A DNA stretch of 57,361 bases from contig JALETB010000022.1 in NCBI GenBank assembly GCA_022781715.1, positions 1-57,361 of the forward strand, given 5' to 3'. The position numbers were made by a program, and so were the translations under genes. Under the pieces are notes generated by a model. That model worked only from the letters and a program-made list of their open reading frames with translations. It made no database searches and was not told the DNA's origin. How positions within the stretch are numbered: the first letter of the stretch is position 1; the number at the start of each line of letters is the position of its first letter. The DNA comes from Clostridiales bacterium (GTDB lineage Bacteria; Bacillota; Clostridia; Christensenellales; Borkfalkiaceae). Shown here one piece after another: positions 16,845 through 33,559 of this stretch.

Positions 16845-16898
16845 CGACGGGTATGAATAGTATGAAAAGTATAACGAAACTTACGCGGGGTGACGGAT

Positions 16899-17138
16899 AT
16901 GCCTAAGGGAAAACAAATTCTCGCTAAAAACGCGGAAAAAAGAGTTTTCGGCACGGCAAAAGTCGGCGAAAAAGGGCAGATAGTTATCCCTAAGGAAGCG
17001 AGAGAGGCTTTCGGGATAGAATCGGGCGACACAATGCTTATTTTCGGCGATATTTCGTGCGGAATAGTAATCACAAAACTCGACGTTTTAAACAAAACGG
17101 CGAACGAAATTATAGAAAAAATAAAGGAAAACAAATAG
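16899..17138 (+). CDS. AbrB/SpoVT-family swapped-hairpin DNA-binding protein
   Basis: 79 residues from ATG 16899, with GGGG 8 bases upstream; a GTG nine bases earlier (16890) is an alternative. The central region GTAKVGEKGQIVIPKEAREAFGIESGDTMLI is the AbrB/MazE swapped-hairpin fold, with the conserved GQIVIPKE[AV]R core. Such proteins act as dimeric or tetrameric transcription regulators, or as antitoxins when paired with a toxin gene. No toxin gene is adjacent. The next gene, two bases after the stop, is a PLP enzyme, so a regulator of that operon is the simplest reading. The C-terminus is a short amphipathic helix. Confidence 0.88.
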   Translation: MPKGKQILAKNAEKRVFGTAKVGEKGQIVIPKEAREAFGIESGDTMLIFGDISCGIVITKLDVLNKTANEIIEKIKENK

Positions 17139-19482: not shown

Positions 19483-20421
19483 TCAGTGTTTGTCGGAATA
19501 AAGATTAATCACGGCGTTCGCCGCGTTACAAACGTCGTAAATAAGTTTTTTCGGGTGTAAAATGCTCACCTTATCGCCGAAGCCGAGCAGTTTTGAGATG
19601 AGCCAGTCGTCGCACGGAATCGTCGCCGAAGCGTAAAGATTTCCGTCCGCACCCTTATAAACCGCGTCCACGCCCAGCCATTCTTCAACGTCCGCGCGGG
19701 CGGCTTCCGTAAGTTTCAGTTCTATGGTTTCACAAGGCAAGTCCTCGAACCATCTTTCCAGTTTAAGATTGCTTTTCGCGTCCTCGCGCGGGCTGTATTT
19801 TTTGTCGGTAAGGTTTGCGTAAACAATTCTCGATGTCTTGAAAATTCTGAAATCGTTCCTTAAAAGGCAGAACGCGTAAACGTACCAGAAACCTTGTTTC
19901 AGCAAAATAATCTGCGGCTCGATCTCGCGCATGGTTTCCTCGCCCGATTTGTCGCGGTAGCAGATTTCGAGCGTCGACTGATTTTCGATTGCTTTTTCCA
20001 CCGTATAAACGACGTTTTTAACGTTGTCGTTGCCGTACCAGTTCGAGCCGTCAATGATAAAGTGCGAGGCCGGCATACTTTCGCTTGCAAAATCCGAACG
20101 CTTGAGCGAGCAGAGTTTGTCCAGCGCGGATTCGATGTCGCTGCTGCCGAGTTGCTCGTTGCACGATTCGAGCGTCGAAACCACGGCGTTGAACTCGCTT
20201 TCGGTCATAACGCTCGCGGGCAGTCTGAACGATTCGGCAATGTAATAGCCCCCGTTTCTGCCCGGTTCGGAAATAAGCGGGATATCCGCAAGGCTTATCG
20301 CCGTGAGATAGCGGAACGCGGTGCGCGTGGAGATGTCGAACCTTCTCGCGATATACGCCGCGCTGACTTTCTTTTTGGAAAGCAGCAAAAACAAAATTTT
20401 AATCATCAATTCGTATTTCAT
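19483..20421 (-). CDS. HTH-WYL transcriptional regulator
   Basis: 312 residues. The N-terminal helix-turn-helix of the HTH_11 type (SAAYIARRFDISTRTAFRYLTAIS) is followed by a linker and a WYL domain (about residues 140-230) with RDKSGEETMREIEPQIILLKQGFWYVYAFCLLRNDFRIFKTSRI. A C-terminal WCX-like region (LKLTEAARADVEEWLG) ends the protein. WYL regulators sense ligands such as nucleotides or modified DNA and frequently control DNA-damage or defence genes. This one is divergent from the recombinase operon (130-base gap), making that operon a candidate target. Its own promoter holds a palindrome in the spacer, suggesting autoregulation. Confidence 0.92.
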   Translation of the reverse strand: MKYELMIKILFLLLSKKKVSAAYIARRFDISTRTAFRYLTAISLADIPLISEPGRNGGYYIAESFRLPASVMTESEFNAVVSTLESCNEQLGSSDIESALDKLCSLKRSDFASESMPASHFIIDGSNWYGNDNVKNVVYTVEKAIENQSTLEICYRDKSGEETMREIEPQIILLKQGFWYVYAFCLLRNDFRIFKTSRIVYANLTDKKYSPREDAKSNLKLERWFEDLPCETIELKLTEAARADVEEWLGVDAVYKGADGNLYASATIPCDDWLISKLLGFGDKVSILHPKKLIYDVCNAANAVINLYSDKH

Positions 20422-20437
20422 TTTTTTCGCCCGCTTG

Positions 20438-20456
20438 TTTACAGAAATTATGTAAA
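20438..20456. promoter_or_regulatory. Inverted repeat in the WYL regulator leader, possible operator
   Basis: TTTAC-N9-GTAAA (plus-strand reading) just downstream of the minus-strand promoter and 17 bases from the regulator start. Dimer-type symmetry in this position would suit autoregulation; this is inferred. Confidence 0.35.
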
Positions 20457-20457
20457 T

Positions 20458-20486
20458 ATTTTACTAAAGGATGTTCCTTTTGTCAA
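20458..20486 (-). promoter_or_regulatory. Promoter of the WYL regulator with a palindrome filling the spacer
   Basis: On the minus strand: TTGACA (20486-20481), 17-base spacer, TAAAAT (20463-20458). The spacer contains AAAGGA-ACA-TCCTTT, a perfect 6-bp inverted repeat (20466-20480), an ideal place for a repressor to block RNA polymerase. Confidence 0.75.
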
Positions 20487-20551
20487 GAAAATCTGTCCGC
20501 GATAGATAAAGCCGCGTTTATTTATTATCGGAAAATGCAATAATACGGTAT

Positions 20552-20710
20552 ATGAAAGTAAATATTTATCTTAATAACGAAAGACTTGAAAACGAAGACG
20601 TGAAAAAATACAAATGCGTGAGTTCTGTCGTAAAGGACGCGGTCAACGAGGCGTATTACAGATATCTCGACGAACAGACCGGATCGCGCGGCGGTAAAAA
20701 CGTCAAGTGA
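20552..20710 (+). CDS. 52-residue unknown protein coupled to the serine recombinase
   Basis: Too short for the ORF track. ATG 20552 opens a frame MKVNIYLNNERLENED... ending KNVK and stopping at TGA 20708-20710, which overlaps the GTG start of the recombinase (GTGA). The sequence is moderately charged, with a predicted beta strand then a helix (VVKDAVNEAYYRYLDEQ), and has coding-like codon use similar to neighbours. No clear Shine-Dalgarno precedes the ATG. The stop/start overlap and the common strand suggest it is translated with the recombinase and may modulate it. I do not recognise the family. Confidence 0.65.
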   Translation: MKVNIYLNNERLENEDVKKYKCVSSVVKDAVNEAYYRYLDEQTGSRGGKNVK

Positions 20711-22242
20711 AAGAAAAGAGCAAAAAAATCACATTCGATTATCCGTTATACGACGAGATAACCGACGAGGACGATGAGATAACAGCGGCGTATCTCCGCG
20801 TTTCCACGGATACGCAGGCGCAGGAAGGTTACGGCCTCGACGTTCAGTATGCCGCGATAAAAAGATACGTCGAGGCTTACGACGTCAAAAACGTTTTCAT
20901 TTTCGCCGACGACGGCTACACCGGAATGAACGAGGTTCGTCCGGCTTTTTCGGCTATGTCGAAGTTGATGAAAGAGGGCAGGGTTAAATTCGTCATCACG
21001 TACAGTCTCGACCGAATCGGAAGAACGCAGATGATTATTCTGCGTTTTTTAAAAGAGCAGTGCGAGGCGGCGAAATGTGATTTTTACGCCGTGAAAGACA
21101 ACGTCGATTCGAGGAGCAGGCAGACTTACGGCATATTGATTTCCATATTGTCAATTTTCGCGGAGTTCGACCACGATGCGATCATTTCCAAACTCACGAG
21201 CGGCAGAATTCAGCGTGCAAAAGAAGGATTCTGGAAGGGCGGGGGAAAGCCGCCGTATGGCTACAGATACTCAAAAAAAGAAGGAGAACTCGTCGTTTGC
21301 GAGGAAGAAGCGGAAAAGGTTAAAAAAGTTTTCGATATCTACACGACGAGCGGTTTTTCACCGAAAAAAATAGCGGATATCGTCGGGCTTTCGTCCGACA
21401 AAGCCGTGTTCAATATTTTGAAAAACAGAATCTACATCGGCGAGGTTTTTTATCGCGGCGAAAGTTATAAGGGGCGCCATAAGTCGATTATCGACTCTGA
21501 AACGTTTGAATCGGCGCAGGAAATACTGAGAGAAAAAAGCGTTAAAAGGAGCGGTTCGGTTTATCTTTTGTCATCGCTTTTGGAGTGCGGTGAATGCGGC
21601 GCGAAAATGCGCTATATGAAGTGGGGTAGAAAAGGCAGACAGATAAAAAACGGACGAGAAAAGAACGCAGCAAAGGGCGACGGCGAACTCAGAATTTTGT
21701 GTTATTCGTATTTCCCGAACAGCACCAAAAAGTATCTCGTAAAATCCGAAAATTGCCCGAACGTGATTTTCGACGCGGAGGCAATCGAAGCCGCGGTGAT
21801 TGAATCCGTTATGCGTTTCGCGGTGGAATACGGAGAAGAAAGAGAGAGAAAAGAGTTGTCCGCAGATGATATAACCGAGGGGTTGAAAGCGAAAAAAGAT
21901 AAATTGGCGGCGGAATATTCGCGGCTCGTGAACGCTTACAGAAAACTCGGCGACGAGGAACTTTTGGAACAGGCGGCGACGATAAAACGAAAAATTAGGA
22001 GACTCGAGAAGGATATCGCTGACGAAGCGGAAAAGAAAACTCTCCTGAAAAACGAACGAAAAAAGATCGAAATAATCCGCACTTTGCCCGACACGTGGGA
22101 TAAAATGGACGACAGAACGAAACAAAGAATTATCCGCGGACTTGTCGAAAAGGTCGTTGTGACTAAAGGCAAAATAGACGTACACCTGCGCAGTTCCGCA
22201 TATGACAAAATCCCTGAGGTTTCGGCCGAAAAAAAAGAATAA
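20707..22242 (+). CDS. Large serine recombinase (site-specific)
   Basis: 511 residues from GTG 20707. The resolvase/invertase catalytic domain has AYLRVSTDTQAQEGYGLD with nucleophile Ser at about residue 33, ADDGYTGMNEVRPAF, and ITYSLDRIGRTQ containing the catalytic arginines. The Recombinase domain (GKPPYGYRYSKKEGELVV, ILKNRIYIGEVFYRG, KGRHKSIIDSETFE), a zinc-ribbon with LLECGECGAKMRYM and later cysteines, and a long coiled-coil C-terminus follow. Large serine recombinases integrate or excise elements or invert DNA. Here no other element genes or att-like direct repeats were seen, so its target is unknown. It is longer at the N-terminus than many relatives (an acidic stretch of about 25 residues before the catalytic domain). 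Confidence 0.93.
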   Translation: MKEKSKKITFDYPLYDEITDEDDEITAAYLRVSTDTQAQEGYGLDVQYAAIKRYVEAYDVKNVFIFADDGYTGMNEVRPAFSAMSKLMKEGRVKFVITYSLDRIGRTQMIILRFLKEQCEAAKCDFYAVKDNVDSRSRQTYGILISILSIFAEFDHDAIISKLTSGRIQRAKEGFWKGGGKPPYGYRYSKKEGELVVCEEEAEKVKKVFDIYTTSGFSPKKIADIVGLSSDKAVFNILKNRIYIGEVFYRGESYKGRHKSIIDSETFESAQEILREKSVKRSGSVYLLSSLLECGECGAKMRYMKWGRKGRQIKNGREKNAAKGDGELRILCYSYFPNSTKKYLVKSENCPNVIFDAEAIEAAVIESVMRFAVEYGEERERKELSADDITEGLKAKKDKLAAEYSRLVNAYRKLGDEELLEQAATIKRKIRRLEKDIADEAEKKTLLKNERKKIEIIRTLPDTWDKMDDRTKQRIIRGLVEKVVVTKGKIDVHLRSSAYDKIPEVSAEKKE

Positions 22243-32791: not shown

Positions 32792-33559
32792 ATGAAACTT
32801 ACCGTTCTCGGGAAATACGGTCCCTACCCGGCAGTCGGCGGCGCGACGAGCGGCTATCTGTTGGAAACCGAAAAAGCGTCGTTCGTTCTCGATATGGGTT
32901 CGGGCGTTTTTTCGCGGCTCGAGGGCAAAATCGCGCCTGAAAAAGTCGATTGTATCATAATTTCGCATTTTCACGCCGACCATTGCGCCGATTTGCCTAT
33001 TTTGGGCTACTATCTTCAACGGCTCGACAAGTCGGGGAAGATTAACGGAAAAATAAAGGTGTTCTGCCCGAAGTCCGACTGCGAAATCTGTTCGTCGATT
33101 TCCCGTTCGAAGTATTTCGACGTGACGTTTGTCGAGGAAAAGGAGTATGAATTCCGCGGGGTGAAACTCCGGTTTTTTAAAACGAATCATCCCGAAACGT
33201 GTTATGGCGTGAACATAACGGAAACAACGAATCAATCGGTTGCGACGGACAAAAACGGCATAACGGGCGGCGAAATGAGTTTTTCTTACACGGGCGATAC
33301 CAACGTCTGTCCCGCGGCGGAAGAACTTTTCAAACGCGCGAAAGTCGTCCTTGCAGACGGCGGACTTTTAGAGCGCGATCGCAGTGAATCATCGCCGCAT
33401 TTAAGCGTTGAAAAGTGCGTCGAGTACAGCAATAAGTGGGGCAATAAGTTGATTATCTCGCATATTTGCCCGTCATACGATAGTGAAGAAATTATTAAAT
33501 GCGCAGGAAGAAAAGGGGAATGGACGATAGCGGAAGAGGGGAAGTCTTACGATTTTTAA
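32792..33559 (+). CDS. MBL-fold hydrolase, RNase Z/PhnP-like
   Basis: 255 residues. The metal motif HFHADH is at residues 59-64; additional conserved residues are TNHPETCYGV, SYTGDTNVC and the C-terminal SHICPSYD. Sequence order and the absence of a linker to a second domain fit the RNase Z-like or phosphodiesterase branch rather than glyoxalase II. The substrate is unknown; possibilities include a nucleotide phosphodiester. The GGAG 7-8 bases before ATG 32792 supports the start. It overlaps the comEC start by 61 bases, so the two are probably co-translated. Confidence 0.88.
   Translation: MKLTVLGKYGPYPAVGGATSGYLLETEKASFVLDMGSGVFSRLEGKIAPEKVDCIIISHFHADHCADLPILGYYLQRLDKSGKINGKIKVFCPKSDCEICSSISRSKYFDVTFVEEKEYEFRGVKLRFFKTNHPETCYGVNITETTNQSVATDKNGITGGEMSFSYTGDTNVCPAAEELFKRAKVVLADGGLLERDRSESSPHLSVEKCVEYSNKWGNKLIISHICPSYDSEEIIKCAGRKGEWTIAEEGKSYDF

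Follow-up and report, generated by a model that had tools for sequence, protein, structure and literature searches.

A serine recombinase and its conserved small upstream ORF as candidates for the reassembly of a split sigG gene

What does a large serine recombinase act on when it stands among housekeeping genes? The question is raised by a locus in the window, the 57,361-nucleotide stretch of DNA analysed here, in which the recombinase gene follows a small open reading frame (ORF) and lies divergent from a gene for a WYL/WCX-domain transcription regulator (Table 1). An earlier note on this DNA had read the three genes as one controlled recombination module. The coordinates that it gave for them are right to the base, as are the 130 bases between the start codons of the WYL gene (ATG, 20421) and the small ORF (ATG, 20552) and the GTGA overlap, in which the GTG start of the recombinase lies on the stop of the small ORF.

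Table 1. Features of the recombinase locus (positions in the window)
Feature	Coordinates	Strand	Evidence
WYL/WCX-domain transcription regulator gene	19483..20421	(-)	Pfam WYL E=5.5e-18, with HTH_11 and WCX
Perfect 6-3-6 inverted repeat AAAGGATGTTCCTTT between the -35 and -10 elements of the WYL promoter	20466..20480		Sequence
52-aa ORF, conserved small-protein family, candidate directionality factor	20552..20710	(+)	Ortholog comparison, AlphaFold model
Large serine recombinase, 511 aa, GTG start	20707..22242	(+)	Pfam, orthologs, tree, sigG co-occurrence

The recombinase locus and its neighbours

By scanning 37 window proteins for domains, chromosomal functions were found (e.g., secDF, recJ, relA, pnp, asd and uvrAB) and no mobile-element domain other than those of the recombinase, in agreement with the earlier description of a recombinase without other mobile-element genes. 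In addition, the window holds no tRNA or Rfam match. A MazE/AbrB-type DNA-binding protein (Pfam E=1.4e-09) is encoded at 16890-17138 (+), directly 5' of a methionine gamma-lyase gene, with no toxin partner recognised.

The promoter of the WYL gene consists of TTGACA at 20486-20481 (-35) and TAAAAT at 20463-20458 (-10), separated by a 17-base spacer. The palindrome noted earlier in this spacer was confirmed as a perfect repeat that takes up 15 of the 17 bases; it is a possible, non-conserved operator of the WYL gene, since none of nine WYL orthologs carries it in its promoter. In the WYL promoters of relatives (L156, L158, L159, L160), a dyad of the form TGACA-N5-TGTCA lies just after the -10 element, where the window has TTACATAATTTCTGTAA, and this dyad may be the real WYL operator. 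No sigma-A-type match was found for a promoter of the small ORF, and inspection by eye for sporulation-sigma promoters identified none for the recombinase.

WYL orthologs occur in 9 of 14 genus relatives, in different neighbourhoods, in genomes with or without the recombinase, and in no case beside it. Furthermore, the WYL gene was not found in the recombinase-bearing genomes G012 and G013. This neighbourhood comparison across nine genus relatives speaks against the WYL gene as a partner of the recombinase, and the regulator is probably a neighbour, not a member of the system. What survives of the three-gene module is a domesticated recombinase paired with a conserved small ORF; the trio as such is unique to this genome.

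The recombinase itself has the domains of a large serine recombinase, with a Resolvase catalytic domain carrying the serine motif RVSTD (as YLRVSTD in the translation), a Recombinase domain and a zinc ribbon (Pfam Zn_ribbon_recom). Its nearest solved sequences are the A118 and TP901-1 integrases and TnpX, which share its domain order and sit in mobile elements, whereas the window recombinase is solitary, with housekeeping genes around it, and its contig carries neither half of a split sigG gene, each of which lies on a contig of its own. A public-genome scan returned ten orthologs (52-58% identity) in Clostridia metagenome genomes, and 15 of 398 genomes of the family, the window's own counted, are carriers. 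Most orthologs have the sigG 3' half downstream; the window recombinase is divergent, on a long tree branch, and unlinked to either half. The recombinase tree intermixes three other genera, and the association with sigG therefore does not depend on a single event. Outside the window's genus, near-identical recombinases are found in different genera and the elements contain a conjugation-type ATPase and TnpV; there, the recombinase evidently moves horizontally. A second, distant serine recombinase of the window's genome (G000:C116:293-1123, L002; 26% identity) has an open frame of 370 aa near a contig end. In G005 (C77) and G013 (C31/C133), contigs stop within the recombinase gene at a near-identical codon (~236-237; L006, L005, L134), a coincidence that may reflect either an artefact of assembly or true variation.

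A small ORF of the same family lies directly upstream in 16 of the 16 recombinase orthologs examined, namely those with the start available, and encodes 43-58 aa depending on the start chosen. This conservation upholds the coupling of small ORF and recombinase that the earlier note had proposed and had made dependent on it. The alignment consensus is MIxxVxVxMGxxxLxxEDxKxYICxSxxVxxIVNxVYxR, in which a Cys and a Tyr are invariant, and among near relatives synonymous changes are favoured (dN/dS ~0.13-0.4). The AlphaFold model (mean pLDDT 82) comprises a hairpin and a long helix; it found no match in a fold search against the PDB, and the sequence gave nothing significant in Pfam, NCBIfam or PHROG. 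As a small protein encoded with the recombinase, it is probably a recombination directionality factor, judged by its conservation and position. For the mobile elements, the gene at their left end is an alternative candidate, because the recombinase and factor genes of SPbeta lie on either side of attP (PMC8270828).

The split sigG gene and its putative attachment sites

The earlier note had also considered a switch, and a local one at this place is not borne out by the window. No copies of the att arms described below were found near the recombinase locus, nor inverted att sites of the kind that a local invertible switch would have; the one match with four mismatches, at 33146, was rejected, as it lies inside coding sequence and is without the core. 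The likely target is instead the sporulation gene sigG, which lies split on other contigs.

The cut in the sigG gene of the window's genome falls at the Pro95 codon, between sigma regions. Its 5' half (C100:15048-15377, -) lies behind spoIIGA-sigE, and its 3' half (C67:14694-15257, +) precedes mrnC-rlmB-sigH-dnaX, a set of genes that in intact genus relatives comes after sigG. Core genes are found near both breaks, with pgk on the 5'-half contig and V-ATPase genes on the 3'-half contig; the names mrnC, pgk and V-ATPase subunit are presumed from reading the sequences, not from searches. When joined in silico, the two halves yield a complete in-frame SigG, and as in skin-type systems a sporulation gene is cut in frame such that its halves are predicted to rejoin precisely. 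The draft assembly of this genome contains no full-length sigG, joined junction or attP.

Full-length sigG is present in none of the 15 recombinase carriers compared with ~334 of the 383 other genomes of the family (Fisher P=2.7e-13, with no correction for relatedness; all genomes compared are drafts). Two carriers pass the E-value limit of the sigG search through the 3' half alone, and only one half was found in three carriers (the 5' half in G005, the 3' half in G104 and G201). At one locus (L044), both halves and the recombinase share a contig, the halves flanking a compact 9.2-kb element with the recombinase inside; in the window's genome, the recombinase is not inside such an element. In G240 (C1; L135, L163, L164, L136), both halves lie on one contig and strand, 43 kb apart and in permuted order. 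If the assembly is right, this layout would fit resolution rather than inversion, and joining the halves would yield a circle of 43 kb that carries sigG.

In most elements, the left-end gene adjoins the 5' half. G005 retains only a remnant of it, and in the window's genome it was not seen next to the 5' half, which suggests an old insertion whose remaining parts have been lost. The hypothesis that the genus acquired the split once gave p-AU values of 0.08 (sigG tree) and 0.39 (recombinase tree). The same left-end gene accompanies split or half sigG in G032 (C17, L116) and G045 (C282 and C209; L119, L111), and no close recombinase ortholog was found in these two drafts. In G252 (L142, 6524-7741, -) and G109 (L144, 471-1721, -), the sigG 5' half is fused in frame to the left-end gene, giving a single ORF of ~405-416 aa.

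In the window's genus, the mean pN/pS of split genomes is 0.19 for the 5' half and 0.16 for the 3' half, compared with 0.22 and 0.16 for the corresponding parts of intact sigG. Between genomes that are both split and whose recombinases are close relatives, dN/dS is ~0.03 for the 3' half (G012/G013) and ~0.1 for the 5' half (G005/G014), with synonymous sites near saturation. Both halves are evidently under purifying selection while split and are not decaying. In addition, the window's own genome retains spoVA homologs.

The ends of the halves carry a further signature. In the 13 genomes with both halves, including the window's, the sequences to the left of the 3' half and to the right of the 5' half form 22-base inverted-repeat arms. 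Their centre is CC, which makes up positions 1 and 2 of the Pro95 codon, and 14-21 of the 22 arm positions are complementary (17 of 22 in the window's genome, chance 4e-7). The arms vary from genome to genome but match within each, and the summed arm score is 217 within genomes versus 172 +/- 6.6 with genomes swapped (P ~5e-6). In G013, the predicted attP would have two copies of an 18-bp repeat in inverted orientation, with CC in the middle and 4 bases between it and each copy. With 22-base inverted-repeat arms and a shared central dinucleotide, as in the att sites of about 50 bp used by large serine recombinases, the sigG break points look like the attL and attR sites of this recombinase family. 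A phage contig (L168) offers an independent check. There, a 32%-identical recombinase precedes a perfect 22-2-22 inverted repeat, after which comes a homolog of the left-end gene. The centre of the repeat is GG (CC on the other strand), and the repeat sits where an unintegrated attP should lie by this reading. No att-like palindromes were found downstream of the integrase in two more distant phages.

Proposed reassembly of sigG and competing explanations

We consider it likely that a domesticated recombinase and its probable directionality factor (20552-22242) reassemble sigG for sporulation; the recombination, its timing and the role of the small ORF are what we infer from the comparisons above. 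Under the rules that govern serine integrases, the recombinase alone would act on attP and attB and keep sigG split, and together with the directionality factor it would recombine attL with attR at the CC dinucleotide, thereby restoring in-frame sigG. Such a unit would descend from phages or integrative elements inserting into sigG, and in the window's genome the recombinase would have moved to a housekeeping locus from which it acts in trans.

Sporulation genes reported to be split include sigK, spsM, spoVFB, gerE and yabG, to which sigG would be new as far as the open-access literature goes, where no report of a split sigG was found. Those five are mother-cell genes, and the DNA of the mother cell is discarded. 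The forespore, in which sigma-G acts, passes its DNA on to the next generation; a rearrangement of sigG would therefore have to be reversible or harmless, and reversibility is what we expect. Since core genes lie beside both breaks, one-way excision could lose essential genes. Such a loss would not arise with a reversible inversion or if, within the spore, the chromosome were reversibly resolved into two circles. A bolder version holds that the trans-acting recombinase and factor reassemble the far-apart halves by inversion or as two circles and split them again after germination, in a programmed, reversible and inherited rearrangement on the scale of the chromosome. This version is offered tentatively, as possible though in our judgement somewhat doubtful.

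The horizontal spread seen outside the genus, on elements with a conjugation-type ATPase and TnpV, would also arise if sigG were a mere insertion site of mobile elements, carriers could not sporulate with the element in place, and the recombinase and halves of the window's genome were functionless leftovers. This appears unlikely, given that in the window's genus both halves have stayed intact, with a rate of evolution as low as that of the unbroken gene, that the att arms still match within each genome, and that neither the recombinase nor the small ORF is broken or lacks conservation. A local role, in which the WYL regulator would control the small ORF and the recombinase and the unit would switch something nearby, agrees with the divergent arrangement and the promoter palindrome in the window's genome. 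It is nevertheless very improbable: the WYL gene adjoins the recombinase in no other genome, is not found in G012 or G013, and its palindrome is not conserved, although local WYL control may have been gained in this genome alone.

The halves might also be two polypeptides that assemble into a sigma factor with no joining of DNA, in the manner of SigO-RsoA, the two-part sigma-factor system of Bacillus subtilis. Here, the cut between sigma regions and an in-frame ATG that starts the 3' half right after the junction are as expected, but this ATG lies in an att arm and has no evident ribosome-binding site before it, and the explanation would account neither for the match between the arms nor for the strict link with the recombinase. 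We regard this as the least probable of the explanations. Under the preferred reading, reassembly of sigG by recombination, a reversible and inherited DNA rearrangement in bacterial development becomes directly testable. Gene surveys would misread split-sigG genomes as lacking sigG and hence as unable to sporulate, and the matched att sites together with the small ORF define a new pair of recombinase and candidate factor.

Comparison with known intervening elements

In Clostridioides difficile, the skin element interrupts sigK; its recombinase CD1231 alone carries out insertion, and excision needs the 72-aa directionality factor CD1234 (PMC5025042). As here, a sporulation sigma-factor gene lies in two in-frame halves, and a large serine recombinase of the same domain order is accompanied by a small partner, of 52 aa in the window. 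In contrast, the site of action is the mother cell for sigK and the forespore for sigG, skin itself contains the genes for CD1231 and CD1234 whereas the window pair occupies a separate locus, and excision has been demonstrated for skin whereas the present system is known from sequence alone. Other intervening elements include SPbeta in spsM, vfbin in spoVFB, gin in gerE and yin in yabG (PMC5595907, PMC10747680, PMC8270828). These likewise combine a serine recombinase, att sites within a sporulation gene and a separate directionality factor, and gin shows that non-phage elements can interrupt sporulation genes. They differ in their target genes and in being compact, with the recombinase inside, whereas the element of the window's genome is broken up.

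Outside the family, in Oscillospiraceae and others, recombinases of ~30% identity also adjoin a sigG half (L054, L055, L056, L057), and sigG is cut at the same codon as in the window's genome. None of these four loci has a small ORF directly upstream of the recombinase. With halves lying beside such distant relatives, sigG seems to have been targeted by serine recombinases more than once in Clostridia.
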